NCBI GenBank assembly: GCA_946406315.1
Contig: CAMJKD010000002.1
Coordinates: forward strand, 1-62,932
DNA: 62,932 bases
Source: an uncultured Candidatus Saccharibacteria bacterium
GTDB lineage: Bacteria; Patescibacteriota; Saccharimonadia; Saccharimonadales; Saccharimonadaceae
Reading direction: 5' to 3'
A model generated the notes under the pieces. That model had not been told where the DNA came from. It ran no database searches and worked only from the letters and a program-made list of their open reading frames with translations. Each line of letters opens with the position of its first letter. Within the stretch, counting starts at the first letter, position 1. Of the stretch, positions 1-62,932 are shown one piece after another. The position numbers and the translations under genes are program-made.

Positions 1-32
1 GGAGATGACTTGGAGGTTTCATATTGAGGCAT
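1..32 (-). CDS. Possible start of a gene running off the left edge
   Basis: On the minus strand an ATG at 32 opens a frame (MPQYETSKSS) that stays open to the window edge. A TATAAT box with an upstream TG lies at 68-63, and a GGAG ribosome site at 44-41 sits 8 bases before the ATG. Only ten codons are visible, so the product cannot be named. The promoter and ribosome site are the only support. Confidence 0.3.
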   Translation of the reverse strand, partial: MPQYETSKSS

Positions 33-142
33 ATCTATGACTCCATTCAGTTTATGTTAATTATTATATCAAATGAAGAAGCGGAAATGTCTCTTTTTTC
101 GTTGTCGAGGGTTGCACTTGAGGGGTTAACTTAGGTGGCACA

Positions 143-171
143 TTGACTTTTTAGGTGTTTTTTGGTATAAT
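143..171 (+). promoter_or_regulatory. uvrA promoter, leaderless
   Basis: TTGACT at 143-148 and TATAAT at 166-171 are separated by 17 bases. The -10 box ends 6 bases before the uvrA ATG at 178, so transcription should begin at or next to the A of the start codon. No Shine-Dalgarno sequence is present. Confidence 0.85.
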
Positions 172-177
172 TAGAAA

Positions 178-3051
178 ATGGCGAGTGATTCTTTTGATGC
201 ACAAAATATGATTAAAATACGTGGCGCGCGGGCTAATAATCTTAAAAATATTGATATTGATATTCCGCGTGACAAGTTAGTTGTAATTACTGGTCTTTCT
301 GGTTCTGGTAAGTCTTCCCTGGCCTTTGATACGATTTATGCTGAAGGCCAACGTCGTTATGTAGAATCACTCTCGTCTTATGCGCGGATGTTTTTGGGTG
401 TAATGGATAAGCCGGATGTTGATATGATTACCGGTCTTTCGCCGGCAATTTCGATTGATCAAAAATCTACTTCGCGCAACCCGCGTTCAACTGTGGCGAC
501 CGTGACGGAGATTTATGATTATTTGCGTCTTTTATTTGCACGGATTGGTGTGCCGCACTGCCCGGTTTGTCATTCGGAAGTGGCGCGCCGTACGGTGCAA
601 GACATTATTGATCAAGTTATGGCTTGGCCGACGGCGTCAAAATTGATGGTTTTAGCGCCAATTGTGTCGCAGAAAAAAGGCTCTTTTTCACATATTGGCG
701 AACAGTATTTAGCTAAAGGTTTTGCGCGGGCGCGGGTGGATGGCATCATTTATGCCCTTGATGAGTGGCCAGAATTAGACAAGAACTTGCGTCATGATAT
801 CGAGATTATCGTGGATCGTTTTGTAATGGCGCCAGGGTTAGAAAGTCGTGTTTCGCAATCGGTTGAACAAGCGCTCGATTTGGGCGATGGCATCATGCAG
901 ATTCTTTGTATAAAAGATAATTCGACAGCGATTGGGCAGAATAATATCAACACTACTAATGCGGAAATTGTGACCTATTCGCAACGTTACGCTTGCCCGA
1001 ATCATCCAGATGAGCTTATTCCAGAGTTAGAGCCACGTCTATTCTCATTTAACGCTCCGCAGGGTGCTTGTCCAACTTGCACTGGTCTCGGAACGCGGAT
1101 GGAGATTGATCCTTCGCTAGTTTTGAACCCAAATTTAACCATTGCGGAAGGTGGTATTCGTCCGTATAATCGCATCAATCAGGATTCTTGGTGGCTAAAA
1201 CGTTTGTCTGCCGTGGGTGAAAAACATGGTTTTTCGGTGCGAACGCCGATTCGTGAACTTTCGGAAGAAGCAATTCAAAAGATTCTTTATGGTACTGGCG
1301 AAGATCGTTATCATGTACGACTAAGTAATGGTTATGAATATGATGCTGTTTATGAAGGTGTAATTCCGAATTTAGAAAAACGATATAAAGAAACTGAGTC
1401 TGACTTTGTGCGCAAAGACATTGAGCGTTTTATGCGTGAACGTGTTTGTCAAACTTGCCATGGTGCGCGTTTGAAGCCAGTGGTATTGGCGATTACGATT
1501 CATGACTTGAATATTATGGATATGTGTGCAATGGATGTGGAGCAAACTTTAGACGCACTAAACTCTGATTTGGGTTTAACCGAAAATGAAGAAATGATTG
1601 CGCGACCGATTTTGAAAGAAATTAAGGCGCGTGTGGGCTTCATGAAAGACGTTGGCTTGAATTACCTTGAACTTGGTCGTTCGGCGGCGACGCTCTCGGG
1701 CGGCGAGGCGCAGCGCATTCGTTTGGCGACGCAGATTGGTTCTGGTTTGCAAGGGGTCTTATATGTACTCGATGAGCCGTCAATTGGTCTTCACCAGCGA
1801 GACAATAACCGCTTAATTGACACTTTGAAACATTTGCGTGACCTGAAGAATACGGTAATCGTAGTTGAGCACGATACGGACACGATTAAGCAAGCTGACT
1901 ATTTAATCGATATCGGTCCGGGTGCGGGTGTAAACGGCGGTAGAGTAGTTTCTGCTGGTACGCCAGATGAAGTCGCAAAAGATCCGAATTCAATTACTGG
2001 TAAATATTTATGCGGTAAAGTTAAGATTGATACACCGAAAAAGCGTCGCAAAGTCACGAATAAATATTTGGAAGTGATTGGTGCGCACGAGAACAACTTG
2101 AAAAACATTGACGTAAAGTTTCCGTTGGGTGTCTTGACGGTAGTTTCTGGTGTGTCCGGTTCGGGAAAATCGACGCTCGTAAATGAGATTTTAGCGAACG
2201 AATTGTTGGCGCGTTTGAATCGCGCACAAACTGTGCCAGGCGCGCATGAACGGATTGACGGAATTGAACATTTAAATAAAGTTATCGTGATTGACCAGTC
2301 GCCAATTGGCCGTACGCCGCGTTCAAATGCGGCAACTTATACGGGTATTTTTAACTATATTCGTGAATTATTTGCGGAGCAACCGGAAGCGCAGGTGCGG
2401 GGCTATAAGCCGGGGCGTTTCTCTTTCAATGTGAAAGGAGGTCGTTGCGAAAATTGCCAAGGTGACGGTGTGATTAAAATTGAAATGCATTTCTTGCCGG
2501 ACGTGTTTGTGACTTGTGATGTCTGTCATGGTAAGCGTTATAACCGTGAGGCTCTGGGAGTGAAATTTAAGGGCAAGACGATTGCGGATGTACTCGAAAT
2601 GACCGTAGATGAGGCGGTAGAATTCTTTAAGAATTTACCGCTAATTGCTGGAAAATTAAAAACTCTGCAGGAAGTTGGCTTGGGCTATATCCGTCTTGGT
2701 CAGCCGGCAACTACTTTTTCGGGCGGCGAGGCGCAGCGTATTAAACTTGCGACCGAGTTAAGTCGTCGTTCGACGGGTAAGACTTTATATATTTTAGACG
2801 AACCAACTACTGGCTTGCATTCGGATGACGTAAAACGTTTATTGTCAATTTTACAGCGTCTGGTATCGGGTGGAAATTCAATGATTGTGATTGAGCATAA
2901 TTTAGACGTTATTAAAAGCGCGGACTGGATTATTGATATGGGTCCAGAAGGCGGTCAAGGTGGCGGTAAAGTTGTAGCTACTGGTACGCCAGAAGACATT
3001 GCGCGTAATGCGAAATCTGACACTGGAAAGTTTCTTAAAGAAATACTTTAA
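178..3051 (+). CDS. uvrA: Excinuclease ABC subunit A (UvrA)
   Basis: UvrA is the damage-sensing ATPase of nucleotide excision repair; it acts in the cytoplasm with UvrB. The 957-residue length is normal. Two ABC ATPase halves are visible: a first Walker A (GLSGSGKS) near residues 39-46 with signature [12 protein letters not shown] near 505, and a second Walker A (GVSGSGKS) near 657 with signature [12 protein letters not shown] near 847. Zinc-binding cysteine pairs occur near residue 130 (CPVC), near 410 (CQTC) and in the C-terminal half (CENC...CDVC, about 758-788). The start is fixed by the leaderless promoter 6 bases upstream. The gene is monocistronic and its stop abuts the stop of the convergent gene at 3052. 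Confidence 0.97.
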
Positions 3052-4041
3052 TTAGTAAACGCGAGAATCGTATTCCCTAAAGGAATAAAAGATGTAATTT
3101 CCGTTTTCGTTCTTGAAAGACATAACATAATGCGCGTAGTTCTTATAGTTGTCTTTATTGATAGTGAAGAATTCTGGATTCTTTAAATCTTTTGATTTGC
3201 CATCTTTATCGATGCTGTCGAATAGTTCCATTTGCGAGATTGAAGCGTCACCTGTTTTGGCATACACGGTGCCGGCAATATAAACATAAGCGTAGTCTCC
3301 GGTATGCTCCTGATCGTAGAGGTAGTAATAGTAGGTATCCGTGGCGTTGCGACTATTAAAACATGAATTGTCATAAATATATTTATGCGTATTTTGGTCG
3401 AGAATTACGCGCGGGCAATAGTCGCTTTTTACTGTATAATTGTTAGTTTCGCCAAAATATTTTGCATATGTATCCATAATGATTTGATAGTCTTTATTGA
3501 TGATGCCGACATTACTAGCGAATGATTTTAGATCAACTTTACTGCAGTCATTTCGCTTGAAGATATATGAACAAGTGTTTGGATTTAATTGATTGAGTGC
3601 GTCGATGCTAATAGAAGATGAATTATCTATTAATGTAGGAATAATGATTGATAGTTTTTGAGAATTATCCATATCGCCGAAGAGGTTTTCGCCTGGCGTG
3701 GTGGTTGATGTGTATTTTATCTTAATATCGAAAGATTTGCCGATGTTGCTAGTGTCGGTTTGACCGCCCGTGAGGATAAAAGCGGCTTTTTGATATATTT
3801 CATTTTCGGCTGTAGTACCGTCAAGTTTTTCTGATTGCGGTTTTTCGGTTAAATTTGCAGTTTCGTCTTCTTCTGGCTTATCGTAGCCGGTGGTTGGATA
3901 TGGTCGATTATCGCGTGGAATGAATGTAAGCAAGATAGCGCCAAGTGAGGCTACGATTGTAATTGCAATAATGATAATTGCTGCAATATTGAAATTTTTA
4001 TTTTCGGATGTTATTTTCGTGGAAGCATTAGCATCATTCAT
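3052..4041 (-). CDS. Membrane-anchored protein of unknown function, paralogue of 4068-5186
   Basis: A 329-residue protein with a short hydrophilic N-terminus, one transmembrane helix (about residues 19-40) and a large predicted extracytoplasmic domain rich in Tyr, Asn and Asp, so probably a type II surface protein. No family is recognised. Its C-terminal half matches the next gene in pattern: a YYYYLYD stretch, then AYVYIAG and a final NYKNYAHYVMSF segment against [12 protein letters not shown] in the neighbour. Cysteines near residues 157-165, 209 and 227 could form disulfides. TAATAT at 4053-4048, preceded by TG, ends 6 bases before the ATG, so the mRNA is predicted to be leaderless. Probably a local duplication that then diverged. 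Confidence 0.75.
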   Translation of the reverse strand: MNDANASTKITSENKNFNIAAIIIIAITIVASLGAILLTFIPRDNRPYPTTGYDKPEEDETANLTEKPQSEKLDGTTAENEIYQKAAFILTGGQTDTSNIGKSFDIKIKYTSTTTPGENLFGDMDNSQKLSIIIPTLIDNSSSISIDALNQLNPNTCSYIFKRNDCSKVDLKSFASNVGIINKDYQIIMDTYAKYFGETNNYTVKSDYCPRVILDQNTHKYIYDNSCFNSRNATDTYYYYLYDQEHTGDYAYVYIAGTVYAKTGDASISQMELFDSIDKDGKSKDLKNPEFFTINKDNYKNYAHYVMSFKNENGNYIFYSFREYDSRVY

Positions 4042-4067
4042 GTTTAAATATTAGCACAGGGAAGAAG

Positions 4068-5186: not shown

Positions 5187-5320
5187 CTTGTCTTTCTTTT
5201 TTGAGTACTTTAATGCTATTTTAGCTTAAATAGTTTGAAATGCCAATTCGATTGAGGGCGGCGGAGACTTATATTTGCGACTTTAGCGCTTAGCATTAAT
5301 GTAATGTTATAATATAGAAT

Positions 5321-5836
5321 ATGGAGCAGCAAAGCCCTACTTCAAACGGAAACGGTTCCGATTCTACAGAGAATTTTGGCTGGAAAGATTACACGGTTAA
5401 TCCAGGTCAATATCATGTGCCGAAAGCTTCTGATATACCAGGAAATGCTGGAGCTTCTTTTGAGGTAGTTGAAGGAGGCGGTAATACTGGCGTACTAGAC
5501 GACTGGCAAGATTATACGACTAAAACTGATCGTGATGACATTATTGTGCCGTTTGATGAAGCAGATGGGAGAGGCTCAATATATACACTAGACGGGAAAT
5601 ATCCGATGATTGGTGTTTCTTCGGAGAATCAAAATAGCGATAGCACAAAGACTGAAAAGTATACGGTAAGGATTAAGAATCCGTCTCTTGCGGAGAGATT
5701 CGGTATTAATGAAGAGATGCTGAAGCAGAAATGTAAACGAATCGGGACTAATGTTTTAGCGGTTGGATTGAAAGCCGTGCCGCCTAATTATGTTGCCGAC
5801 TTGGTAGCGGCCGGCATAGTATCTGAAGCCGCATAG
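5321..5836 (+). CDS. Hypothetical soluble protein
   Basis: A 171-residue hydrophilic protein with no signal peptide, membrane helix or family I recognise. Two short internal repeats are visible near the N-terminus (GWKDYTVNPGQYHVP and DWQDYTTKTDRDDIIVP), each a W-x-DYT motif followed by a Pro-Val or Val-Pro. The C-terminal 60 residues look folded (SLAERFGINEEMLKQKC and following). TATAAT at 5308-5313, preceded by TG, ends 7 bases before the ATG, predicting a leaderless transcript. It stands alone between divergent and tandem neighbours with their own promoters. Confidence 0.7.
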   Translation: MEQQSPTSNGNGSDSTENFGWKDYTVNPGQYHVPKASDIPGNAGASFEVVEGGGNTGVLDDWQDYTTKTDRDDIIVPFDEADGRGSIYTLDGKYPMIGVSSENQNSDSTKTEKYTVRIKNPSLAERFGINEEMLKQKCKRIGTNVLAVGLKAVPPNYVADLVAAGIVSEAA

Positions 5837-6663: not shown

Positions 6664-8505
6664 CTATTTCTTTTTGAGTGCTTCGCAGTTAGCGACAAGA
6701 CGTTCGTGGAAGCTGGTACGTGCGGCGTCGGCGTTATTATTGTCTCCCTTCCAGGCATGAAGGGCTGGGTCTTGTAGTGCGCGGGCAAATGAGAAGGTGA
6801 CTGGCCACGGGAAAGGTCCATTGTTAATGACGGCTTGGAGATTTTCGGTGGCTTGCGTGACGGTTTGGCCGCCACTTAGGAATACGACACTGGCTAGTTC
6901 GCTTGGAACATGGGCGCGTAGTACGTCGGCGGTAGCTTTGCCGACTTCTTCGGGAGTAGATGGAGTATCGTAGCGCTTGCCGGCAAGGACCATGTTTACT
7001 TTGAGAATACAGCTCGGTAGGCTAACGCCTTTATTTTTTAATTCTTCAAATAATGCGTCGAGGATTTGACCTGTGTATTCAGCGCTTTTTTCAATTGAAT
7101 AGTCGCCATCATAGACGAGTTCTGGCTCAACGATTGGCACGATGCCAGTATTTTGACAATCGAGGGCGTATTGAGCGAGAATTTTGGCATTTTTACGAAT
7201 CGCCATTGGGCTTGGGCTATGGTCGGTAACTTCAAAAGCAGCGCGCCATTTAGCAAAGCGGGCGCCCATGTCGTAGTATTCCGCGAGTCTATTTAATAAT
7301 CCTTCGAGACCTTTGGTGTATTTTTCGTCTGAGCCTTCAATTAGTTCAAGACCCTGATCGACTTTAATGCCTGGGATAATACCTTTATTGGCGAGGTAGC
7401 TAACGAAATCTTGACCATCGTCAGATTGTTGACGGGCGGTTTCGTCGAATAGGATAACGCCGTTTACGTATTTTTCGAGGTCTGGTGTTGTAAAAAATAG
7501 ATTACGATAATCGCGACGGTGTGTTTCGTCATCTGGGATATTCATACTTTCGAATTTTTTATGAATAGAACCGCCAGATTCATCGGCGGCAAGGATGCCA
7601 CGTCCTTCGGCGACTAAACGTTTAGCATTGGATTCAATTTCTAGCATTTTATCTTCCTTTGGATTATGTTTTTCTATACGATAATAATCGTCTGATATTT
7701 CCTCTTCAAGTGTTGATAGGTTTGAGCTGGCGCTCAGAATTGAGTGTTCAACATTGGCGCGAGCTAATAATAGAGCCTCATCTGGATTTTTGCCTAGTAC
7801 TAGTGCGCCAAATACAGAGGCGGCGATGGTGAGATGCGAGCTAAGATGTGTCATGAGGTCTTGACGATCCTCGAGTTGCCAACGGACGCGTTTACCCATG
7901 TATTCGATATAGTGCGGTGCGATAGTGACGAGCTTTTCGATATTCTGGCTTAGTTTAAGGTCGGCAATTACGAGGTCAGCGCGATTGAGAAGGTCGCGCA
8001 TATGGTTAGCATTGGCGTTGCTATATTTGCCAACAAAGAGTGCGAGTTTACTTTGATGGTTCGATTTAAGGTACTCGATAATATCTTCGGCGAGCCTAGG
8101 TGAAATATTAGCACTACGATCAAGATAAATCCAGTCAATATCTTCTTTTGGTGCTTCCCAAGTAGTCGGAGCGTGATTGCTTGGGCTAAGATAGCTGACG
8201 TTGCGGTCTTGGCAAAGAATATAGCGATAAACAGTGTCGGCATCTTTGGCGATAAATTGACCATCTAGAAAAGTGGCAGAAGTGCCGGATATTTCGGCTG
8301 GAAGACCGAAGCGCGTCAACACCTCCAGACTAATGCTGGCGCCGCCAAAGATGGAGACGCGATTGTAGTATTTATGGGTGGAACCGTCAAAAGCAAAATC
8401 TAGCCATTTAATATCGTTCCGATCGGTTTCGAAGTTGTTTTGGCGGTTATCGAGGCGCAGATAGACATCCTTTGTAACGTTGCCAACAATCAAAATGTTG
8501 TTCAT
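6664..8505 (-). CDS. Fusion of a degenerate PfkB-family kinase domain and class I fructose-bisphosphate aldolase
   Basis: Residues 287-613 are a class I (Schiff-base) fructose-1,6-bisphosphate aldolase: GRGILAADESGGSI at 301-314, the lysine of RFAKWRA (K419), the glutamate of VPIVEPE (E460) and the Schiff-base lysine in LKVNMV (K502). Residues 1-270 resemble a PfkB/ribokinase sugar kinase, with the FGGASISLEVLTRFG substrate segment at 53-67, but the DTxGAGD motif that holds the catalytic Asp is not seen; the matching place (about 222-238) reads SSHLTIAASVFGALVLG. The aldolase is therefore probably active and the kinase probably dead or altered. An ordinary aldolase start (M287) exists, but there is no gap or stop between the domains. 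TACAAT at 8517-8512 ends 6 bases before the ATG, so it is predicted leaderless. Confidence 0.9.
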   Translation of the reverse strand: MNNILIVGNVTKDVYLRLDNRQNNFETDRNDIKWLDFAFDGSTHKYYNRVSIFGGASISLEVLTRFGLPAEISGTSATFLDGQFIAKDADTVYRYILCQDRNVSYLSPSNHAPTTWEAPKEDIDWIYLDRSANISPRLAEDIIEYLKSNHQSKLALFVGKYSNANANHMRDLLNRADLVIADLKLSQNIEKLVTIAPHYIEYMGKRVRWQLEDRQDLMTHLSSHLTIAASVFGALVLGKNPDEALLLARANVEHSILSASSNLSTLEEEISDDYYRIEKHNPKEDKMLEIESNAKRLVAEGRGILAADESGGSIHKKFESMNIPDDETHRRDYRNLFFTTPDLEKYVNGVILFDETARQQSDDGQDFVSYLANKGIIPGIKVDQGLELIEGSDEKYTKGLEGLLNRLAEYYDMGARFAKWRAAFEVTDHSPSPMAIRKNAKILAQYALDCQNTGIVPIVEPELVYDGDYSIEKSAEYTGQILDALFEELKNKGVSLPSCILKVNMVLAGKRYDTPSTPEEVGKATADVLRAHVPSELASVVFLSGGQTVTQATENLQAVINNGPFPWPVTFSFARALQDPALHAWKGDNNNADAARTSFHERLVANCEALKKK

Positions 8506-8540
8506 GTCTTTATTGTAGCATAGGTAAATCTGTTACGAAT

Positions 8541-9382: not shown

Positions 9383-11842
9383 CTATAATTCGCCCCAGTC
9401 ATGCCCAATCGTAACATCGACTGCAAGTTTGACTGGTAATTCTGGCGCAACGCTCTCCATGGTTTCTTTCAGGATTGTTTTAACATCTTCAGCTTGAGCT
9501 TCGGTGCATTCAATAATCATAGAATCGTGAACCTGCAGGATGAGTTTGGCGTCGTTTGGTAGTTCCTTAGCGACGGCCAGCATGGCTTTCTTCATCAAAT
9601 CAGCTTCGGTGCCTTGGATAGGCATATTACCAGCAGCGCGTTCGGCGGCGGCGCGAACGAGACGATTTGGCGCGCCAAGATCTGGAGTTGGGCGGCGGCG
9701 ACCAAACATCGTTTCGACGTAGCCGTGAGTGCGGCCAAATTCGAGGGTATCGTCGAGATATTTGCGCATCGGCGCGCGGAGCTCGAAATAGCGGTCGATG
9801 AATTGTTTGGCTTCGTAAAAAGTCATACCAGCAGCATCGGATAGGCCTTTTGGGCTCATGCCATAGAGTACGCCGAAATTAATCACTTTGGCGGCGCGGC
9901 GCTGATTTTTGGTAACTTCTGTCATTGGAATATGGAAGGCATCGGCAGCGGTTTTAGTGTGGATGTCGAGACCGGCGTTAAAATCGGTGATGAGTTTTTG
10001 GTCGCCAGATAGCGCAGCGGCTAGGCGGAGCTCAAATTGGGCATAATCGGCAGAAACAAAGATTTTCCCTGTTTCAGCTACGAAACAATTGCGGATGCGC
10101 TTACCGTCGTCGCTACGTACTGGTATGTTTTGTAGGTTCGGATTAATACTTGAAAGGCGGCCGGTGGCGGTTACGTCTTGGGTATAAGTAGTATGAATGC
10201 GATGTCTTTCGTCGGCAAGGGTTGGGAGCGGATTGACATAAGTGCTAAGCAACTTCCCTACTTCGCGGTAGCGCTCAATTAGTGGGATGATTTCGTGCTG
10301 GTCGCGGAGTTTATCAAGCTCTTTGGCGCCAGTCGAATAGGCGCGCTGCGTCTTTTTAATGCCCTGTGTTGGTAAGCCGAGGTCTTCAAATAGTACTTGC
10401 GAGAGTTGAATTGGCGAATTGATATTGAAATTTTTGCCAGATATTGTATAAATTATTTGCTCAAGCTCGGATAATTCGGTCGAAAACTCTTTTCTTAGTG
10501 CATCGAAGCGCTCTGGCGCAATGGCGACGCCCGCTTTTTCCATTTGATACAGTACTGGAATGAGCGGCATATCGAATTCGGTGGCGATTTTTTCGAGTGA
10601 CGGCATGGCGGCGAGCTGTTTGCGCTGTTTGACGTAGTCTTCTTTAGGGTCGCCGAGGTCGACGAGGGACATTTGATTAGTTTTGCGCGCGAGTGGATCT
10701 AAGAGGAAATTGACTTGTCCGAGGTCCCAAAATGGGCGTCCTTTGAGGATTTCCGTTGCCAGGTTGGGATTATCGTGCATATCGGCTTTGACGTTATGGG
10801 AAATGTAGAGGTTTTCTGGAACTTCTACTGCAATATCGGCCGGCGGTGGTAAAATATTGGTCGGTATTTGGCCTGGTTTTGGTGTTGTCTTTTTTACAAC
10901 AGGCTGGTTGGTCGGTTTTGGCGCCTCTGTTGTGATTTTTGCAACGTTTTCGAGCTTGGTTTCAGGGAAAATCTTGATAAATTTACGAATAAGAGAGTTA
11001 AATTGGAGCTTTTTGAGCTCGGCGATGACTTTTTCGGGGTTAAAATCGGCTAATTTTGTAGCGGTCGCATCAAATTCAAGTGGTGCATCGAATTGGATTT
11101 GCGCTAGACGCTTGCTAATGAAGGCTAATTCTTTGCCTTCACGGAGCTTATTGCCGATAGCGCCTTGAATCTCGTCAATATGATCATAGAGATTCTCAAG
11201 CGTGCCGTATTCTTGCAGTAATTTAATGGCGCCTTTTTCGCCAACGCCCGGTACGCCTGGAATGTTATCGGACGAGTCGCCTTTAATGGCTTTGAGATCG
11301 AGGAATTGGTCTTTTTTGAGACCGTATTTAGCCTCGACGTCTGGGATGTTAAATTCTACTACATCGGAAAAGCCGCGTTTGAGCTGATACATTTTGATAT
11401 GGTCGTCGACAATCTGGAGCATATCGAGGTCACCAGAGATGATCTCGACGCGTTTATTGGCGACCTGTGCTTTCTTAGCGAGCGTACCAATAATATCATC
11501 AGCCTCATAGTCGTCAAATTCATAAAGTGGGATATGGAAGGCTTCTAGAAGTTCCATTAAATAAGGGATTTGGGCGTAAAAATCTGGCGGTGCGGGTTTA
11601 CGATTAGCTTTATAATCGGCATAAATAGCCCGACGACTGCGAATGTTAGTTTTGGATTTATCCCAGGCTACGGCGATATATTCTGGTTCAAGTTTTTCGA
11701 TAATTTCAATTAGCATCGAAGCAAAGCCGTAGACGCCACCGGTGGGGGTACCGTCTGGGAGCGAAAGATGCCCCATAGCATAGTAGCCTCGATAAAAAAC
11801 ACTTTTGCCGTCGATTATGGTCAGATTTTCGCGTTCATCCAT
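9383..11842 (-). CDS. polA: DNA polymerase I
   Basis: Polymerase I fills gaps and removes primers. The 819-residue protein has an N-terminal 5'-3' exonuclease (DGKSVFYRGYYAM, then EADDIIGTLA and GDSSDNIPGVPGVGEKGA) and a C-terminal polymerase with motif A (VSADYAQFELRLAA), O-helix (RRAAKVINFGVLYG) and motif C (QVHDSMIIE). Between them the 3'-5' exonuclease module is short: a degenerate second motif (SHNVKADMH) and FWDLGQVNFLLDP remain, but the first D-x-E motif is missing, so proofreading is probably lost. The start is set at the ATG at 11842 rather than the upstream ATG at 11890, because TATAAT at 11854-11849 ends 6 bases before it; the longer reading would begin inside the upstream terminator. 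Confidence 0.95.
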   Translation of the reverse strand: MDERENLTIIDGKSVFYRGYYAMGHLSLPDGTPTGGVYGFASMLIEIIEKLEPEYIAVAWDKSKTNIRSRRAIYADYKANRKPAPPDFYAQIPYLMELLEAFHIPLYEFDDYEADDIIGTLAKKAQVANKRVEIISGDLDMLQIVDDHIKMYQLKRGFSDVVEFNIPDVEAKYGLKKDQFLDLKAIKGDSSDNIPGVPGVGEKGAIKLLQEYGTLENLYDHIDEIQGAIGNKLREGKELAFISKRLAQIQFDAPLEFDATATKLADFNPEKVIAELKKLQFNSLIRKFIKIFPETKLENVAKITTEAPKPTNQPVVKKTTPKPGQIPTNILPPPADIAVEVPENLYISHNVKADMHDNPNLATEILKGRPFWDLGQVNFLLDPLARKTNQMSLVDLGDPKEDYVKQRKQLAAMPSLEKIATEFDMPLIPVLYQMEKAGVAIAPERFDALRKEFSTELSELEQIIYTISGKNFNINSPIQLSQVLFEDLGLPTQGIKKTQRAYSTGAKELDKLRDQHEIIPLIERYREVGKLLSTYVNPLPTLADERHRIHTTYTQDVTATGRLSSINPNLQNIPVRSDDGKRIRNCFVAETGKIFVSADYAQFELRLAAALSGDQKLITDFNAGLDIHTKTAADAFHIPMTEVTKNQRRAAKVINFGVLYGMSPKGLSDAAGMTFYEAKQFIDRYFELRAPMRKYLDDTLEFGRTHGYVETMFGRRRPTPDLGAPNRLVRAAAERAAGNMPIQGTEADLMKKAMLAVAKELPNDAKLILQVHDSMIIECTEAQAEDVKTILKETMESVAPELPVKLAVDVTIGHDWGEL

Positions 11843-11870
11843 AGCTATATTATAGCCTATATCTGTTAAT

Positions 11871-22960: not shown

Positions 22961-23031
22961 AGAGTTATTTTAACACAAAAGTTACAATTAGATGATTATA
23001 TGAAATTGGGAATGATTTTCAATTTTGGGTT

Positions 23032-41930: not shown

Positions 41931-41975
41931 GTATATTATTTTAGCATAAGCTAAATGTGAAATACAATTGAAAAA

Positions 41976-43744: not shown

Positions 43745-44641
43745 CTATTCCTCGTCAATATTTATTAATTCATATTCTCGCGTACCGAGGCCAAGGCTTT
43801 CGGCGTATGGTAGGATTTCGCGTCCCTCTTGGCGGTCAATGCGTGCTTGCAATTCTTTGGCGCCAGGATCGTCACTATTCCAGACCATATCAATAAACGC
43901 TTGGTCGTTGGCGACTGGGTCGAGGCTAGCAACAATGCCGAGGTCGGTCATGACTGGATCGCCCTGATTTGCGTCGCAGTCACAATCAACCGAGAGAGCG
44001 TTCATAACGGTAATATAAACAATTTGCTTATTGTTGTCCTTGATATAATCCGCAACAGCAGTAGCGGCTTCGGCCATTGATTCAATGAAATCGATTTGCT
44101 GATATTTAGTCATCCAGCAGAGTCTTGGGCTTTTAGTTTTGCCGCATGAGTGAATGTAGGCTTTACCATTGCGCGAGGCGATGCCGATGGATTGGTTTTT
44201 GAGATTGGCACCAAAACCACCCATGGCGTGGCCTTTACCATGCGCGAGGTTGATGATGGAGTCGTAGTTAGCGAAATTTTTGCCAACGAGATCGAATTTT
44301 AGGTGCTTGCCATTTTTGACTGGGATTTCGAGTTCGCCGTCGGCGTCCATAATGTCGACGTCGGCAAAATTTGTAAAACCATGATTGGCGGCGACTTTGA
44401 GATGCTCTTCTGCGTTGTTGCGTGCACCTGGATAAGCGGTATTACACTCAATGATAGTGCCGTTAAGTTTTTTAACAAACGGTCCAATCAAATTGGCCTT
44501 TAGGTAACCTTTTGAGCCCGCTTCGCCGGTAGAAACTTTGACGCCTATTTTACCATTGAGGGTCACGCCGAGTGCGTCGTAGACTTTTTGCAATGATTCT
44601 GGGGTAATAGTTTTAGTAAAGTAGACTTTAGCTTTATTCAT
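43745..44641 (-). CDS. DUF362-domain protein
   Basis: A 298-residue protein of the DUF362 family: conserved starts (KVYFTKTITPES), GIKVSTGE-like VKVSTGEAGSKGYLKA, then INLAHGKGHAMGGFGANLKN and SCGKTKSPRLCW. Many DUF362 proteins carry ferredoxin-like iron-sulfur motifs; here the C-D-C-D segment (SVDCDCDANQGDP) and the SCG/LCW cysteines are the only candidates and no standard 4Fe-4S motif is present. TAAAAT with an upstream TG at 44653-44648 ends 6 bases before the ATG. Confidence 0.82.
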   Translation of the reverse strand: MNKAKVYFTKTITPESLQKVYDALGVTLNGKIGVKVSTGEAGSKGYLKANLIGPFVKKLNGTIIECNTAYPGARNNAEEHLKVAANHGFTNFADVDIMDADGELEIPVKNGKHLKFDLVGKNFANYDSIINLAHGKGHAMGGFGANLKNQSIGIASRNGKAYIHSCGKTKSPRLCWMTKYQQIDFIESMAEAATAVADYIKDNNKQIVYITVMNALSVDCDCDANQGDPVMTDLGIVASLDPVANDQAFIDMVWNSDDPGAKELQARIDRQEGREILPYAESLGLGTREYELINIDEE

Positions 44642-44681
44642 AAGACTATTTTAGCATGTTTAAGGTGATACAATGATAGAT
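44642..44681. promoter_or_regulatory. Divergent leaderless promoters, DUF362 and hemolysin III genes
   Basis: TAAAAT on the minus strand (44653-44648) ends 6 bases before the ATG at 44641; TACAAT on the plus strand (44669-44674) ends 7 bases before the ATG at 44682. Both have an upstream TG. Confidence 0.75.
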
Positions 44682-45359
44682 ATGAAAAAACGCACGAAGT
44701 TGGCCGATCGTAAACTTCCCGATTATACTAAGGGTGAAGAAATCTTCAATATGGTAACGCATATTGTTGGCGGTGCGTTTGGGATTGTGCTACTGATTTT
44801 ATGCATTATCCGTGGAGCAACGCATACCGGAGTGGCTGGAGTGCTAACTGGTATTGTGTTTGGACTTTGTATGATTATTCTTTATACGATGTCGGCCATT
44901 TACCATGGATTGTCGCCGAGGGTAAAAGGCAAGAAAGTTATGCAGATTTTGGACCACTGCTCGGTGTTTTTATTAATTGCAGGAACTTATACGCCAATCA
45001 CAATTTGTGCGTTGGCGAAGTCCGATCCGGTGTTAGCGTGGGTGATTTTTGGCGTAGTATGGGGCGTGTCGGTAATAGGCATAGTACTTAATTCTATTGA
45101 TGTAAACAAATATATGCCGTTCTCAATGGTATGTTATATTGCGCTAGGTTGGTGTATTATCTTGTCTTTACCGCAAATGATGTCAATTTTGCCAATGATG
45201 GCAATTGCACTACTCTTTTGCGGTGGAGTAGCCTATACGGCTGGTGCGGTAATGTTTGGACTGGGCATAAAGAAGCGTTACATGCATTCGGTATTTCATA
45301 TTATGGTAGTGATTGGCAGTGTATTTCACGGTTTGATGATCTTAATATACGTGTTGTAA
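44682..45359 (+). CDS. Hemolysin III-family (PAQR) membrane protein
   Basis: A seven-helix membrane protein of 225 residues from the ATG at 44682. PAQR-type motifs: EEIFNMVTHIVGGAFG near the N-terminus, MSAIYHGLSP with its conserved His, LDHCSVFLLIAGTYTPIT, and HSVFHIMVVIGSVFHG near the end; the conserved Ser/His/Asp set suggests a zinc-dependent hydrolase. I start at 44682 rather than the in-frame ATG at 44673 because the latter lies inside the -10 box. The hemolysin name is historical; a ceramidase-like activity is proposed for relatives. Confidence 0.9.
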   Translation: MKKRTKLADRKLPDYTKGEEIFNMVTHIVGGAFGIVLLILCIIRGATHTGVAGVLTGIVFGLCMIILYTMSAIYHGLSPRVKGKKVMQILDHCSVFLLIAGTYTPITICALAKSDPVLAWVIFGVVWGVSVIGIVLNSIDVNKYMPFSMVCYIALGWCIILSLPQMMSILPMMAIALLFCGGVAYTAGAVMFGLGIKKRYMHSVFHIMVVIGSVFHGLMILIYVL

Positions 45360-46543: not shown

Positions 46544-46570
46544 ATTGCTCAGCGATAGTATAATAAGATT

Positions 46571-46972
46571 ATGAATAAAACTAAAATCGGTAAAATAATT
46601 ATTGAGCCAGGAGTTAAAAATGTTTTGCCGTGGGAGATGCATAGTGCGCTTGCCCTAAAAGAGGCGGGCTATACTGTTAAATTTATTCCAAAACACGACT
46701 CGGCGCGTACTGCCGATGCTTTTCTTGATGATACTCAATTTGAGTTTAAATCTCCGGAAGGTTCAAACATTAAGAGCATAGAAAACAATTTGCAAAAAGC
46801 TTTGAGATACCAGTCGAAGAATATAGTGATTGATTCATGTCGCGTTAAAAATCTACAAGACAGAAGTATTCAGAATTATCTGATAGCTAGACTTAAGCGC
46901 AAGAAAGGTATTAAGAGGCTTATATTTGTTACTCGAAATGGTAAGGTGATTGACATAAACGATTATATTTGA
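46571..46972 (+). CDS. CdiA-C-like tRNA-nuclease domain protein, copy 1
   Basis: A 133-residue, strongly basic single-domain protein. The layout fits the PD-(D/E)xK-type nuclease domain found at the C-terminus of some contact-dependent inhibition (CdiA) toxins and in mobile-element proteins: E22 in WEMHSALALKEAGY, D49 in RTADAFLDD, the E58-F-K60 pair in FEFKSPEGSNIKSIENN and a C-terminal LIFVTRNGKVIDI strand. The assignment to that family is from memory of the pattern. No secretion signal, no longer toxin body and no adjacent immunity gene are visible. TATAAT at 46559-46564 ends 6 bases before the ATG. The stop is TGA followed at once by TAG. Confidence 0.75.
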   Translation: MNKTKIGKIIIEPGVKNVLPWEMHSALALKEAGYTVKFIPKHDSARTADAFLDDTQFEFKSPEGSNIKSIENNLQKALRYQSKNIVIDSCRVKNLQDRSIQNYLIARLKRKKGIKRLIFVTRNGKVIDINDYI

Positions 46973-48181: not shown

Positions 48182-48443
48182 AAAAGACAATGAATGATGA
48201 CAACTTTTATATAATCTGCTATAATCTAATTAATGCAGTGACTGGTAAGTAGTGGTTTACCCCTGCGGCATAGCGATGCGAGTCCTATGTAGGTCGCGGC
48301 GCCAAAAATATCTTCTTTGCGAGGATTTTTTGTTGTTTATTTAAGTCGGTTGAAGAAGCCGGCTTTTTCTTTTGTTGAGGTGTTGTAGCGGTTTTGATTA
48401 TCGTGCCAATCTTCTTCAATAACCATGATGTTATAATTATCCC
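48182..48443. other. Intergenic stretch without a gene
   Basis: Between the IS1595 element and the 48444 gene. It holds a tRNA-like but non-canonical stretch (48236-48305: a GGTAA/TTACC stem, a CATAG/CTATG stem and a GGCGCCA end) that does not fold into a proper cloverleaf, and a T-rich hairpin region near 48306-48335. The promoter of the next gene occupies 48432-48437. Confidence 0.4.
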
Positions 48444-48965
48444 ATGGAACCATTACTAACCACAAAAGAGGCGAAAACACTTCAGATGACTGAAACAAAT
48501 CTTGCAACTATTACTAAAAAGGTCAATCGCGTTATTTATGCGGAATGGGCTTTTCCTGGAGCTATGGGATGTGCTGGTACGACACGCGTTTACATAATGG
48601 ATGGTGAGGATTTAATCCAATACGAAACCGGAATGGGTAAATTATATGATAAGATATACGATCTCATAAATGACAGATCAGATAAAAAATACACAAAAGA
48701 GACGGTTTTTGGCTCACTTTCCAGTTCGAAGGATTCTTTGAAAGTCAAGAAGGATTTACCTCAATACTTCAAATCGGCCTATGGAGGATTCGGCAATCTT
48801 GCATGGAAAAATAAAGGAGTTAAATTCAGTTGGGACGATAAGAACAATAGCTTTATCTTTTTCGATATAAATAATGGGAGATATTATCGCGTTAGATGCT
48901 CAATAATGGGCGTATATCGTCATCTTAGAAGTCAATTTGCTTCAAGTTGTTCGCATGTTCTATAG
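48444..48965 (+). CDS. Hypothetical protein next to an ADP-ribosylglycohydrolase
   Basis: A 173-residue soluble protein. The N-terminal 55 residues (VNRVIYAEWAFPGAMGCAGT, TRVYIMDGEDLIQYET) look like a beta-rich domain; no family is recognised. It has no membrane span. TATAAT with upstream TG at 48432-48437 ends 6 bases before the ATG. Its stop overlaps the convergent glycohydrolase gene by six bases. It might be related to the ADP-ribosylation system next door, but no transferase motif is visible. Confidence 0.65.
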   Translation: MEPLLTTKEAKTLQMTETNLATITKKVNRVIYAEWAFPGAMGCAGTTRVYIMDGEDLIQYETGMGKLYDKIYDLINDRSDKKYTKETVFGSLSSSKDSLKVKKDLPQYFKSAYGGFGNLAWKNKGVKFSWDDKNNSFIFFDINNGRYYRVRCSIMGVYRHLRSQFASSCSHVL

Positions 48966-49985
48966 CGCCATAAAGTGACTATCATCCTCAAACCTTGTAC
49001 GAATAATTGGGCATTCATCCATGTTAAGCAACCTGTCTGCAATGTCTACTAGTTCGTTTGAAAGATGCACTCCATCACGCCATTCTTCCGGGATTGCTTC
49101 ATATCCATATAGCGCGCCAGCAAGTTGACCATAGCACGCTGCGTTTGTGTCTGTATCTCCGCCAAGGCGAATTACTGCCAGCATGCCATCTTTGAAATTG
49201 TTGTGGTTCCGAATTCCCCATAAAGCAATGGTCAATGCGTCTACTATATATCCACCATGATCCTTTAAGGATTCTCCGCTCCTATCATTAGAACGCTGAG
49301 TTGATTCGAGTAGTCTCTCGACATATTCGTTTCTGTCCTCAGGATAGAGATTGGGAACATATCTGAGAATATGCTCATCAACAAATCCATAATGAAGAGC
49401 ATAGTCTAATGCGCCTGCAAATACGGTAGTCGCCGCAATGGCTATATATGAATCATGAGTTTCTCGACAAGATAACTGAGCCAAATGAATGAGATGATCC
49501 ACGGACTGTGGCTTTCCACCATCTTTCTTCGTAGATGCTATAACGATTGGAGCTAACCGCATAATCGGGCCGTTGCCGGCGCGATTTGTTTTTCTTGTAT
49601 CTTTGGGGATTGTTTTATGCCTACCATACATTAAGAGAGATAAGGAAGTTTGCTGACCGATGCCTACAGAGTGGTCTACGGACGATCGATAGCCATACAG
49701 GAACCATTTTGTGAATTTGTCCATCATGTCATAAGAGTCGTAACCGCCTTTTTCGAGAAGGCTATCGGCTATACAGAGAGCCATAGACGTATCATCCGTC
49801 CATGCGCCCTTAGGCAATTTGAAATTTTTCGTTTGAGCATGGAAATGTGATATTTTGTCTCCAAGTTCGACTATATCTTTACTTTTATATCCGAATTCAT
49901 ATGGAGCGCCAAGAGCATCGCCGATGGCTAGCCCGGCAAGCATGCCGCGTGCTTTATCTTGATAGTCAGATGCCTTCTTTGCCAT
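48960..49985 (-). CDS. ADP-ribosylglycohydrolase (DraG/ARH family)
   Basis: A 341-residue hydrolase that removes ADP-ribose from proteins or other acceptors. The two-metal site motifs are present: ALGAPYEFGYKS near the start with GAWTDDTSMAL (T-D-D), and IRLGGDTDTNAACYGQLAGA near the end (GGDTDTNA). The start is moved from 50024 to the ATG at 49985 (MAKKASDYQDKARGM), because TATAAT with upstream TG at 49998-49993 ends 7 bases before it. No ADP-ribosyltransferase is seen nearby. Mobile-element scraps on both sides suggest an accessory gene. Confidence 0.92.
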   Translation of the reverse strand: MAKKASDYQDKARGMLAGLAIGDALGAPYEFGYKSKDIVELGDKISHFHAQTKNFKLPKGAWTDDTSMALCIADSLLEKGGYDSYDMMDKFTKWFLYGYRSSVDHSVGIGQQTSLSLLMYGRHKTIPKDTRKTNRAGNGPIMRLAPIVIASTKKDGGKPQSVDHLIHLAQLSCRETHDSYIAIAATTVFAGALDYALHYGFVDEHILRYVPNLYPEDRNEYVERLLESTQRSNDRSGESLKDHGGYIVDALTIALWGIRNHNNFKDGMLAVIRLGGDTDTNAACYGQLAGALYGYEAIPEEWRDGVHLSNELVDIADRLLNMDECPIIRTRFEDDSHFMAL

Positions 49986-50002
49986 TACGATAATTATAGC
50001 AT

Positions 50003-50183: not shown

Positions 50184-50720
50184 TAAAATCGTATCTGGAA
50201 GATGCACCGTTTGGGTGCATTTTTTGAATTGCTCAGCGATAGTATAATAAGATTATGAATAAAACTAAAATCGGTAAAATAATTATTGAGCCAGGAGTTA
50301 AAAATGTTTTGCCGTGGGAGATGCATAGTGCGCTTGCCCTAAAAGAGGCGGGCTATACTGTTAAATTTATTCCAAAACACGACTCGGCGCGTACTGCCGA
50401 TGCTTTTCTTGATGATACTCAATTTGAGTTTAAATCTCCGGAAGGTTCAAACATTAAGAGCATAGAAAACAATTTGCAAAAAGCTTTGAGATACCAGTCG
50501 AAGAATATAGTGATTGATTCATGTCGCGTTAAAAATCTACAAGACAGAAGTATTCAGAATTATCTGATAGCCAGACTTAAGCGCAAGAAAGGTATTAAGA
50601 GGCTTATATTTATTACTCGAAATGGTAAGGTAATTGACATAAACGATTTTATTTGATAGTCTATAAGTATAGAAGTCTTCCGAGGGCTCACTTAGAGCCT
50701 CGCCCGAGGGCTTCCTTTTT
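50184..50720 (+). repeat. Duplicated nuclease cassette, copy 2
   Basis: 537 bases, near-identical to 46499-47036. Its left hairpin (TGCACC-GTTT-GGGTGCA plus six T) is perfect. It lies between two fragments of a helix-turn-helix coding sequence, which suggests that the cassette moved into, or recombined within, that gene. Confidence 0.92.
50255..50656 (+). CDS. CdiA-C-like tRNA-nuclease domain protein, copy 2
   Basis: 133 residues, identical to the copy at 46571 except Val to Ile near residue 119 (LIFITRNG) and Tyr to Phe near the end. All putative catalytic residues (E22, D49, E58, K60) are kept, and most other base changes are silent or outside the gene, so both copies appear to be under selection or the duplication is recent. 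TATAAT (50243-50248) ends 6 bases before the ATG. Terminator hairpins stand on both sides. Confidence 0.75.
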   Translation: MNKTKIGKIIIEPGVKNVLPWEMHSALALKEAGYTVKFIPKHDSARTADAFLDDTQFEFKSPEGSNIKSIENNLQKALRYQSKNIVIDSCRVKNLQDRSIQNYLIARLKRKKGIKRLIFITRNGKVIDINDFI

Positions 50721-51799: not shown

Positions 51800-51870
51800 G
51801 TGTTTATTTTGCTAATGCTATTTATAGATTATCATAAATATTCTTAAAAAATGAGATGTATAATAAAAAT

Positions 51871-53139
51871 ATGAGAGGTTCAAGGAAGAATTTTGGGAGT
51901 ATATTACTTCTGATTGGTTTGGGTGTAGGTGTAGCGGTTGGTACTTGTTTTTTATTTTTCCAATTTAATAAAACGGAAAACGGCGAGAAAGAAGATGTTA
52001 GCACAAAAAAGATTGAATCGAACGCAGAGTCGGAGTCGAATCCAATTGCTACTAGTGCGAAAATGAAGATAATGTATGCCGGTACGACTTTCTGGGGTCG
52101 TCGTACGAACCAGCTCGCGCGCGCATCGGATTTGGGTGTAAAGTACCCATTTTCAAAGCTCGATACTATGCATCGCGAAACATATGATGCTTGGATTGGC
52201 GGTTTGGAGTGTCCGCTAGTGCAGAAAGAAGGTAATGAGCATAATTATGCAGAAGAAAATTCAATTTTTAAATTTAACTGTGACCCAGATTATCTTGCGG
52301 AGGCAAAGAAATATTTTACTGCTTTTCTATTGGGGAATAATCATACGGATAATCAAGGTGGCGGTGAAGGTTTAACTGAGACACGTAAGCATCTTGACGA
52401 GGCGGGAATTCAATATTTTGGCACGCCAAAATATACTGGAACGGTCGATAGTGAATTAGCGCGTGACACAAAAGAAGCTACCAACTGTGGAATTGTAGTT
52501 TTGCCAATCAATGTAACTTATGATAATGGAAAAACCAATAAAATACAGATGCCTTTTGGTTTCTGTAGTGCGCATGGCGTTTTCGGTGTTCCGGGGCAAG
52601 ATTACATTGATAATATGAAGATTTATGCGACTTATATACCAACTATTGCGATGCCGCATATGGGTGCAGAATATCAGCCGTCGCACGATCAGCTGCGTCA
52701 AAATTTGTATCGTCAAATGATTGATTCAGGTGTTGATGCGGTGATTGCTGATCATCCGCATTGGATTCAGGATACTGAGGCATATAAAGATAAATTGATT
52801 GTTTATTCGATGGGCAACTTTATGTTTGATCAATATGACGGCATGGAGAATTCACGTTCGGCGGCGATTGAGGCGAATGCGGAAGTTGCCGTGAAGGATG
52901 TAGATTTTGATAAATGGGATAAGTTAGGTAAAGATTGCCTGAAAGATAAAAAGAGTTGTTTTGAAAAAATCCAGAATGCTAAATTGCCGAAAATATCAAC
53001 TACATGGAAATATGATTTTCATGCCACAACTTCGGTTAGCGATTGTATTACGCGCCTATCGAGTCAATCCGAGCAAGATTCGGTCGCGCAACGTTTGCGT
53101 TGGTCGGCGATTCCGACGACGATGAAAGTTAATAAATAA
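51871..53139 (+). CDS. CapA-family (poly-gamma-glutamate/capsule) metallophosphoesterase, membrane-anchored
   Basis: 422 residues from the ATG at 51871. One N-terminal helix (ILLLIGLGVGVAVGTCFLFF) anchors a CapA domain: AGTTFWGRRTNQLARASDLG, then GGLECPLV, LLGNNHTDNQGG, MPHMGAEYQP and VIADHPHWIQ with YSMGNFMFDQ. The D in the usual GD motif is replaced at the first site by AGTTFWGR, so metal binding may differ. CapA-type proteins take part in capsule or surface-polymer export. TATAAT (51859-51864) ends 6 bases before this ATG, which overrules the ATG at 51856. Confidence 0.88.
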   Translation: MRGSRKNFGSILLLIGLGVGVAVGTCFLFFQFNKTENGEKEDVSTKKIESNAESESNPIATSAKMKIMYAGTTFWGRRTNQLARASDLGVKYPFSKLDTMHRETYDAWIGGLECPLVQKEGNEHNYAEENSIFKFNCDPDYLAEAKKYFTAFLLGNNHTDNQGGGEGLTETRKHLDEAGIQYFGTPKYTGTVDSELARDTKEATNCGIVVLPINVTYDNGKTNKIQMPFGFCSAHGVFGVPGQDYIDNMKIYATYIPTIAMPHMGAEYQPSHDQLRQNLYRQMIDSGVDAVIADHPHWIQDTEAYKDKLIVYSMGNFMFDQYDGMENSRSAAIEANAEVAVKDVDFDKWDKLGKDCLKDKKSCFEKIQNAKLPKISTTWKYDFHATTSVSDCITRLSSQSEQDSVAQRLRWSAIPTTMKVNK

Positions 53140-61191: not shown

Positions 61192-61195
61192 AATA

Positions 61196-61843
61196 TTACC
61201 ATTCTATAGGAGTTAGATTCCAACTTTCAAGCTTAGCATTACATTTGCTAAACGGCTTTGAGCCGAAGAAGCCGTTATGCGCGGAAAGTGGCGAAGGGTG
61301 GGCGGATTCGATAATAAAATGTTTTGACTGGTCGATCATGGTTTTTTTGCTGCGCGCATCTCTACCCCAAAGGATAAAAACAAGATGCGGACGATTTTCA
61401 TTGAGGTATTCAATAATATGTTCGGTGAAAATTTCCCAGCCTTTGCCGCGATGACTGCCTGCCATATGCGCCTCGACGGTGAGTGTGTTATTTAGTAACA
61501 TGACACCTTGTTTAGCCCAGCGCGTAAGGTCGCCAGAATCGGGGATAGGTATACCGATGTCGTCGTGGATTTCTTTGAAAATATTGCGTAATGAAGGCGG
61601 AAATTGAACGCCTTTATGGACGGAAAAAGCGAGACCGTTTGCTTGGCGTGGACCGTGATAAGGATCTTGGCCAATAATAACGACTTTAATGTTGCTCAAG
61701 TCGGTAGCAAAGGCTGAAAAAACCTGTTGCTTAGGTGGATAGATAGTTTTAGTTTCGTAGGCTTCATGTAAAAACTTGGAAAGCTCCTTAAAATATGGTT
61801 GGTCAAATTCAGATTGTAGAATGGGTTTCCAAGACTCGTGCAT
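61196..61843 (-). CDS. ung: Uracil-DNA glycosylase
   Basis: A 215-residue family-1 enzyme that removes uracil from DNA. Catalytic Asp in IGQDPYHGPRQANGLAFSV and the C-terminal HPSPLSAHNGFFGSKPFS loop with the catalytic His are intact. The start is set at 61843, where ATG shares its first base with the tmk stop (TAATG); the ORF can be extended four codons upstream but only into tmk. Grouping with tmk, tdk and an HD hydrolase suits a role in keeping dUTP and uracil out of DNA. Confidence 0.95.
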   Translation of the reverse strand: MHESWKPILQSEFDQPYFKELSKFLHEAYETKTIYPPKQQVFSAFATDLSNIKVVIIGQDPYHGPRQANGLAFSVHKGVQFPPSLRNIFKEIHDDIGIPIPDSGDLTRWAKQGVMLLNNTLTVEAHMAGSHRGKGWEIFTEHIIEYLNENRPHLVFILWGRDARSKKTMIDQSKHFIIESAHPSPLSAHNGFFGSKPFSKCNAKLESWNLTPIEW

Positions 61844-62457
61844 TAGATACTCCAAAACTTCTTTAAACGTTCAAAGACTTCGTCTGGGGTGCCGGAGGTA
61901 TCTAGGGTTGGGATACTAAATTCTTTGGCGACCTTGAGGTAGGCATTGTTGAGTTTTTTGCCATATTTCGCGTCTTGTGATTTGAAAAATTCTTTCGCGC
62001 GTTTCCCTTGCGAGATAAGACGTTTTTGACGCTCCTTGTCGGATAAAGTTAAAATTACAATTTTGTCTGGTTTGAAGTAGGTCTCTGGCATAATCATCTT
62101 GTGTAAGCGCGTGATTAAACTACGGCTAACGCCGGTGCCATAACCTTCGTAGATATAGGTCGAAAGCCAATAACGCGTAACGATGGCGATGTCGTTATTT
62201 TTTATAGCTGGTTCGGCGTATTTTTTGAATTGTTCGTAGCGATTTACGAGATAGAGCAATACACGGGTGCGCTTATCGATATCGTTGACGGTGCCATAAT
62301 TGAGTTGAGCAATTTGACGGACGAAATCGTTTTCTGAAGCAGTGCCAGATTCGGCGTAATGTACGACTTTTTTGCCTTGGTTTTTGAAATGTTCGACTAA
62401 TTTAGCGGCCTGAGTGTCTTTGCCGGTAGCATCTTGACCTTCGATAACAATAAACAT
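61843..62457 (-). CDS. tmk: Thymidylate kinase
   Basis: A 204-residue kinase that phosphorylates dTMP to dTDP. The P-loop reads EGQDATGKDTQ instead of the usual DGxGKTT-type sequence, with an Asp after the lysine, and the family segment VTRYWLSTYIYEGYGTGVSR and the lid region follow. The odd P-loop may mark a divergent subfamily; the enzyme could act on related nucleotides. One-base overlaps (TAATG) join it to tdk upstream and ung downstream. Confidence 0.9.
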   Translation of the reverse strand: MFIVIEGQDATGKDTQAAKLVEHFKNQGKKVVHYAESGTASENDFVRQIAQLNYGTVNDIDKRTRVLLYLVNRYEQFKKYAEPAIKNNDIAIVTRYWLSTYIYEGYGTGVSRSLITRLHKMIMPETYFKPDKIVILTLSDKERQKRLISQGKRAKEFFKSQDAKYGKKLNNAYLKVAKEFSIPTLDTSGTPDEVFERLKKFWSI

Positions 62458-62932
62458 TAGTCTGTCTCCTTATATTTAAAATAACAATGTGCACAGATGG
62501 CACGATATTCAATTTTACTTGTGCCATCAATTAAGACGTCAGGACCGTCGGTAACTAGTTTACCGTTGAGCCAACGTGTATTTAGAGTTGCCTTGCGACC
62601 GCAATCGCAGATGGTTTTGAGTTCTTCGATTTTATGGGCGAGCTGCAATAAGCGCGTAGCGCCTTCGAATCCGCCATCTTTAAGGCGAAAATTCAGCCGT
62701 AAACCATAGCAGATAACAGTAATGTCGAGTTTAATTACGACTTCGAGTAGTTGATCTACTTGGGCGGATGTTAAGAATTGTGCTTCATCGACTAGTATGC
62801 AATTAACGTTGGCGAAATCTTTTTTAATGCGATTATATAAATTCATGCGATGACTAAAACAAAAATTTGTATCGCGTTCGGGGCCGATGCGGGATAAAAG
62901 TTTGGTGCCGTTTTTAGTATCAGTTGCAGGTT
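62457..62932 (-). CDS. tdk: Thymidine kinase, 5' end beyond the window
   Basis: The C-terminal ~158 residues of a type II thymidine kinase; the frame stays open to the window edge, where it reads PATDTKNGTKLLSRIG and then RDTNFCFSHRMNLY. Walker B-like DEAQF, the lasso region (ITVICYGLRLNFRLK) and the zinc-binding CDCGRKATLNTRW with a later CAHC are typical. The P-loop lies outside the window. It salvages host thymidine and feeds tmk, with which it overlaps by one base. Confidence 0.93.
   Translation of the reverse strand, partial: PATDTKNGTKLLSRIGPERDTNFCFSHRMNLYNRIKKDFANVNCILVDEAQFLTSAQVDQLLEVVIKLDITVICYGLRLNFRLKDGGFEGATRLLQLAHKIEELKTICDCGRKATLNTRWLNGKLVTDGPDVLIDGTSKIEYRAICAHCYFKYKETD

Follow-up and report, generated by a model that had tools for sequence, protein, structure and literature searches.

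About one sixth of the genes of this Saccharibacterium are very likely leaderless: extended -10 promoters are predicted to place the A of the AUG at transcript position +1 in these genes, and many others would be translated from a normal Shine-Dalgarno (SD) sequence. Saccharibacteria are tiny symbiotic bacteria of the Patescibacteria (CPR), a huge phylum that has been little studied. The reduced genome considered here (1.07 Mb, 99.5% complete, 26 contigs) includes the window, i.e., the whole stretch of 62,932 nucleotides that was analysed (bases 1-62932 of contig 2), with a GC content of 40-45%. The 3′ end of its 16S rRNA, GGATTACCTCCTTT, carries an intact anti-SD.

An earlier note on the window had listed 20 start codons at which a TATAAT-like box, often preceded by TG, ends 6 or 7 bases before the ATG, with no SD sequence. 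When re-measured, the spacing was found at all 20 starts, with a gap of 6 bases at 16 of them and of 7 bases at four (5321, 41930, 44682 and 49985). The hexamer matches TATAAT at six of six positions in 10 sites, at five in nine, and at four in one (4041, TAATAT). A TGn extension precedes the box at 14 of the 20, often though not always, as in an extended -10 promoter. The absence of SD held at 19 sites, which lack a strong match, and failed at 44682, where an SD-like stretch forms a duplex of -7.7 kcal/mol; this stretch could serve the ATG at 44673, and 44682 is doubtful as a leaderless start. The ORFs from 33350 and 34113 were not called as genes by our hexamer-based caller. Additionally, 46571 and 50255 count as one case because both sit in an exact 300-nt duplication. 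Without the three doubtful sites (44682, 34113 and 33350) and one duplicate copy, 16 listed cases remain (Table 1).

Table 1. Candidate leaderless start sites in the window, with the three bases before the -10 box, the box and its gap to the ATG.
ATG	Coordinates	Strand	Promoter	Gap	Gene or product	Remark
178	166..180	+	TGG-TATAAT	6	uvrA	score 8.9; UvrA domains
4041	4039..4053	-	TGC-TAATAT	6		score 5.0; 4/6 matches only
5321	5308..5323	+	TGT-TATAAT	7		score 7.8
8505	8503..8517	-	TGC-TACAAT	6	class-I aldolase domain protein	congener also gap 6
11842	11840..11854	-	GGC-TATAAT	6	polA	not GTG 11890; congener start equivalent
19924	19922..19936	-	TGA-TATAAT	6	UvrD-like helicase with PD-(D/E)XK nuclease domain	congener gap 6
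19962	19950..19964	+	TCT-TATAAT	6		37 bp to divergent start 19924
22960	22958..22972	-	TGT-TAAAAT	6	glycerol-3-phosphate dehydrogenase	gap 6 in 5/6 loci
26672	26670..26684	-	TGC-TAAAAT	6	ABC transporter ATPase	congener gap 7
33315	33313..33327	-	TGA-TACAAT	6	1865-aa protein	no Pfam match
33350	33338..33352	+	TGC-TATAGT	6	34-codon ORF	doubtful gene
34113	34101..34115	+	GTT-TATACT	6	32-codon ORF	weak, score 2.0
41930	41928..41943	-	TGC-TAAAAT	7		score 8.0
44641	44639..44653	-	TGC-TAAAAT	6	DUF362
44682	44669..44684	+	TGA-TACAAT	7	HlyIII family	SD-like stretch present, doubtful
46571	46559..46573	+	TAG-TATAAT	6	matches CdiA C-terminal domain (CdiA_C)	copy of 50255 site
48444	48432..48446	+	TGT-TATAAT	6		score 7.8
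49985	49983..49998	-	TGC-TATAAT	7	ADP-ribosylglycohydrolase	longest ORF starts TTG 50024
50255	50243..50257	+	TAG-TATAAT	6		duplicate of 46571
51871	51859..51873	+	ATG-TATAAT	6	CapA-like	longest-ORF ATG 51856 directly 5′ of box

Several features of these loci are recorded alongside. The duplication (46536-46835 and 50220-50519) carries a leaderless-type promoter and the start of two ORFs. Three divergent pairs, 19924/19962, 33315/33350 and 44641/44682, lie about 34-40 bp apart, with a -10 box of its own on each side at gap 6-7; the 33350 and 44682 sides are the doubtful ones. The 1865-aa protein with a leaderless-type start spans 27718-33315. Positions 33350-33683 hold what we take to be tyrosine recombinase-like pieces in two frames with stops between them, probably a decayed gene that retained a leaderless-type promoter; the 34-aa piece at 33350 gave no Pfam match. 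For the gene at 19962, a single named relative turned up, in a rumen Candidatus Saccharibacteria (52% identity).

Based on our own hexamer-based gene caller, 430 genes (86% coding) were predicted in 463 kb, i.e., 43% of the genome, using the longest-ORF start, a rule that is blind to promoters. A box was defined as at least five of six matches to TATAAT with A2 and T6 fixed, and the gap as the number of bases between the box end and the ATG. For the 42 ATG longest-ORF starts of the window, gap 6 holds 12 boxes and gap 7 holds 2, and no other gap between 0 and 45 holds more than 2. Across the 463 kb, the 323 ATG starts showed 49 and 14 boxes at gaps 6 and 7, respectively, against a mean of 4.76 and a maximum of 10 at the other gaps; the peak at 6-7 bases, whose lack the earlier note had named as refuting its reading, is strong. 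A first, stricter caller that found only 281 genes (67% coding), and which was replaced, shows the same peak (37 at gap 6 and 11 at gap 7 of 228 starts). In the whole genome, the exact pattern TATAAT-N6-ATG occurs 81 times, compared with 26 for N9 and 15 for N12. Furthermore, among 339 in-frame ATGs that come second, no more than 40 codons from a start that is not leaderless-type, 14 have a box at gap 6 and 6 at gap 7, versus about 1.6 per other gap. From the starts and second ATGs together, the leaderless-type share is estimated at about 72 of 424 genes, or 17%, after background subtraction. The description of these starts as widespread is supported by this estimate of about a sixth of genes, but SD-led genes coexist with them and are more numerous.

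The sequence logo of the 49 gap-6 cases has T in 82% at -3 and G in 61% at -2 of the box, which corresponds to the TG extension, and the hexamer itself is composed of T 98%, A 100%, T 59%, A 96%, A 88% and T 100%. No column further upstream exceeds 0.35 bit; thus, there is no clear -35. The base before the ATG is T in 67% and C in 22% of these cases. With a score of at least 4 required, a pyrimidine occupies -1 in 90% of 60 genes, compared with 50% of 141 SD-led ATG genes (Fisher p 2e-8). A pyrimidine at -1 followed by a purine at +1 is the usual transcription initiator, so this base marks the A of the ATG as +1 independently of the spacing. The start codon found at the leaderless spacing is ATG in 60 cases and GTG in one (60/61), whereas ATG accounts for 320 of 424 starts overall, and 107 non-ATG starts showed no excess.

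The genes were also split by SD, as had been proposed. After dropping starts closer than 60 bases to a stretch end or lacking an upstream neighbour, 424 of the 430 genes were kept for counts by context. An SD match (-4.5 or lower) is present in 5 of 60 leaderless-type genes, as opposed to 209 among the 364 remaining genes, and the figure for 846 random coding sites is 25%; pairing to the anti-SD upstream of the start is missing in the other 55 of the 60. The gap peak, the initiator base, the SD depletion and the exclusive use of ATG agree, and as read from the DNA they favour the proposal that these mRNAs would begin at the AUG. By gene context, leaderless-type starts represent 23 of 126 divergent genes, 11 of 77 co-directional genes at more than 100 bp, 12 of 62 at 31-100 bp and 14 of 159 at 30 bp or less. 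The promoter-proximal enrichment is modest (46/265 versus 14/159 lying no more than 30 bp behind a co-directional gene, Fisher p 0.015), and for the latter 14 of the 60 genes, a leadered read-through mRNA could also exist.

The peak is repeated in related genomes. In two congeners, G321 and G244, boxes at gaps 6 and 7 amount to 36 + 11 of 316 and 46 + 16 of 300 starts. In eleven other genomes of the family, 54 + 18 of the 386 ATG starts had such a box, with a mean of 4.62 at each remaining gap, and three genomes of the order gave 5 + 3 of 66 against 0.68; in two genomes of the class, of three fetched, none of 16 starts showed it, a small sample. Stretches shorter than 9 kb (G009, G260, G049 and G114, two of the 13 family genomes included) were skipped in these counts.

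The extent of conservation was evaluated with ortholog pairs summed over three species pairs, which overlap and are not independent. Among 56 pairs with a leaderless-type member, the partner keeps the type in 27, becomes SD-led in 2 and is neither in 27, while a leaderless-type partner was found for 5 of 69 SD members and 21 of 99 members of neither type. In the 27 kept pairs, the gap is identical in 20, although the sequence flanking the box upstream shares only 32% identity; hexamer identity between orthologs is inflated because the pairs were picked by motif score. Nine of the 61 genomes of the class have the glycerol-3-phosphate dehydrogenase gene, and gap 6 is present in 5 of 6 loci, our genome included (two with TAAACT, read by eye); the other three of the nine are distant matches (22-33% identity) that were left out of the gap reading. 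The clearest case against strict conservation of gap 6 is uvrA, whose gap-6 box is found only in our genome and in none of 29 relatives' loci. A gap of 8-9 in 17 of these 29 implies leaders of 2-3 bases, and in 11 the probable start has no box at any gap from 6 to 10. In the uvrA upstream regions L095-L108, most members of the family retain the -10 box with 8-9 bases between it and the ATG.

Beyond the family, exact TATAAT-N6-ATG matches were compared with TATAAT-N12-ATG matches of the same genomes as the control; gap 9 was dropped as the main control of this phylum-wide scan because it is itself raised in other members of the phylum. Over 286 Patescibacteria genomes, 7387 matches were found at gap 6 and 2808 at gap 12, with gap 6 exceeding gap 12 in 263 genomes, equal to it in 8 and below it in 15. 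The counts are 723 versus 140 in 15 genomes of the organism's own family and 6450 versus 2585 in 261 genomes outside the class. Families with at least 15 matches number 117; the excess is significant at 0.001 for 52 of them taken singly and absent from 6. In 14 genomes outside the class, a pyrimidine precedes the ATG in 124 of 150 gap-6 matches and in 52 of 117 gap-12 matches, among the matches listed; the other spacer positions of these 150 listed gap-6 matches have no bias. The same DNA signature appears to recur across much of the phylum, and the signs are good though incomplete.

The alternative that survives best is that, at many of these genes, transcription begins 1-4 bases before the AUG and that the ribosome tolerates these few bases. 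It finds support in the uvrA loci (gap 8-10 in 18 of 30) and in orthologs that drop the leaderless type, in which the box often lies at gap 8-11, for a leader of about 2-5 bases. Outside the class, 19 genomes with 218 ATG starts gave 13, 7, 12 and 12 boxes at gaps 6-9 against a mean of 2.98, from 20 stretches fetched (15 chosen because their pattern counts were high and 5 because they were low), one of which was too short; leaders of 0-3 bases fit this broader peak better than strict leaderlessness. Nevertheless, we consider this alternative unlikely: boxes concentrate sharply at gap 6 and have become few by gap 8 in our genome (49, 14 and 6 boxes at gaps 6, 7 and 8) and in both congeners (36, 11 and 7; 46, 16 and 1), and the preference for a pyrimidine in gap-6 cases is confined to the position immediately before the A.

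It has also to be considered whether the ATG next to the promoter is the true start, or whether ordinary leadered mRNAs are translated from a downstream start led by an SD. Between codons 5 and 40, 20 of 58 testable leaderless-type genes do contain an in-frame start with an SD before it, but the rate is similar for other start types (40/166 and 48/143), so a few starts could be wrong. The peak persists when coding-score starts replace the longest ORF (46 + 16 of 322 at gaps 6 and 7), and starts lying further in would leave the near-exclusive ATG at this spacing unexplained. In polA, the congener ORF opens three codons before the equivalent ATG, with no earlier start codon, and in the CapA-like gene at 51871 the congener start agrees within one codon. 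The proposal that the spacing decides between start codons is backed for polA by one congener, a second relative being uninformative, and for the CapA-like gene within one codon; 49985 has no relative in the compared DNA. Spurious start codons are not favoured, considering the downstream SD starts and the congener starts, and we regard this explanation as very improbable.

That AT-rich upstream DNA merely makes TATAAT-like words common near ATGs, with a background of about 4.8 boxes per gap, is rejected as scarcely credible, given that 200 dinucleotide shuffles of the upstream regions yielded 7.6 ± 2.7 boxes for gaps 6 and 7 together (maximum 15) against 63 observed, that 2318 internal ATGs of the same genome had no excess at gap 6, that the other gaps never exceed 10, and that 200 kb of E. 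coli, analysed with the same caller and with T1 also fixed, had none of 117 ATG starts at gaps 6-7. In this E. coli sequence, the exact pattern has one match at gap 6, the same as at several other gaps. At internal ATGs with a score of 4, gap 7, like gap 4, reaches about twice the mean (10 versus 5.15), a codon-phase effect; thus, gap 6 is the stronger evidence and the small peak at gap 7 the weaker. A Deinococcus plasmid taken as a positive control proved too small to be informative: its 50 kb with 25 ATG starts gave 1 box at gap 6 and 1 at gap 7, with a mean of 0.28 elsewhere.

Under the leaderless reading, a TGnTATAAT extended -10 promoter with no clear -35 would be positioned to make the A of the AUG transcript position +1. 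We infer this position from standard -10 geometry and the pyrimidine-A initiator. The mRNA would be leaderless and devoid of an SD, and initiation would depend on the 5′-terminal AUG. Entry would probably be by intact 70S ribosomes or assisted by IF2, the routes of known leaderless mRNAs, while many other genes would use a normal SD with the intact anti-SD tail. All 21 genomes searched encode a short S1-like protein, with a length of about 355 aa in ours and every match scoring under the rpsA cut-off, and 18 of them, ours among them, encode IF3; for these two factors, no machinery change and nothing explaining leaderless initiation was found.

Leaderless bacterial genes are an already known kind. 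Zheng et al. (2011) took a Pribnow-like TANNNT box some 10-12 bp ahead of the start codon to denote a leaderless gene, and such TA-led genes average 19% in Actinobacteria and 39% in Deinococcus-Thermus (PMC3160421). The localized -10 box peak about 12 bp upstream of the start is shared with those genes; unlike the TANNNT box, the element described here comprises the complete extended -10 (TGnTATAAT), and the genome that carries it is reduced. The term TM7 is absent from that paper's text (PMC3160421). In Mycobacterium, many mRNAs begin at the start codon (Cortes 2013, PMC3898074; Shell 2015, PMC4633059), and leaderless genes stand beside a large leadered class, as in our genome; unlike in Mycobacterium, where 5′ ends were mapped, leaderless genes are predicted here from DNA. 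GeneMarkS-2 defines leaderless classes (Lomsadze 2018, as reported in the StartLink paper, PMC9581028), and the species assigned to them may include a Saccharibacterium.

For Saccharibacteria or CPR, no description of leaderless genes was found in the literature searched, which agrees with the earlier statement that none was known for this lineage; several of the result lists were capped, and absence is unproven. The mentions met in the papers examined were in reference lists, a remark on the SD of the host and a remark on YchF, a protein retained by CPR and linked elsewhere to leaderless translation (PMC12641178). A term search of a Patescibacteria review returned neither promoter, transcription start nor Shine (PMC11665869). 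Published Saccharibacteria cassettes used the tuf and rpsJ promoters from TM7x (PMC10633639). By eye, both genes look SD-led on contig 3 of our genome and contig 5 of G321, and neither turned up in the sample of G244; leaderless translation would therefore go unnoticed in cassettes that use their upstream regions.

Very probably, the finding is real and the leaderless reading right, and a known kind of gene start is extended to a lineage for which no description was found. The chances seem to us evenly divided on a wider proposal, in which a start codon at transcript +1, or within about 3 bases of it, set by the -10 promoter would be phylum-wide and perhaps ancestral, would partly replace the SD at promoter-proximal genes and would let divergent genes share an intergenic region as short as 30-40 bp. 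Patescibacteria account for a large part of bacterial diversity, and their genetics has hardly been explored. If at least a sixth of their genes lack leaders, starts assigned by SD-weighted gene finders could be corrected in thousands of genomes. Likewise, the position of a promoter could be deduced from the gene start, and a leader and an SD may both be dispensable in cassettes for reporters or expression. It would also become testable whether the altered ribosomes of Patescibacteria favour 5′-terminal AUGs and whether leaderless initiation existed early in bacteria.
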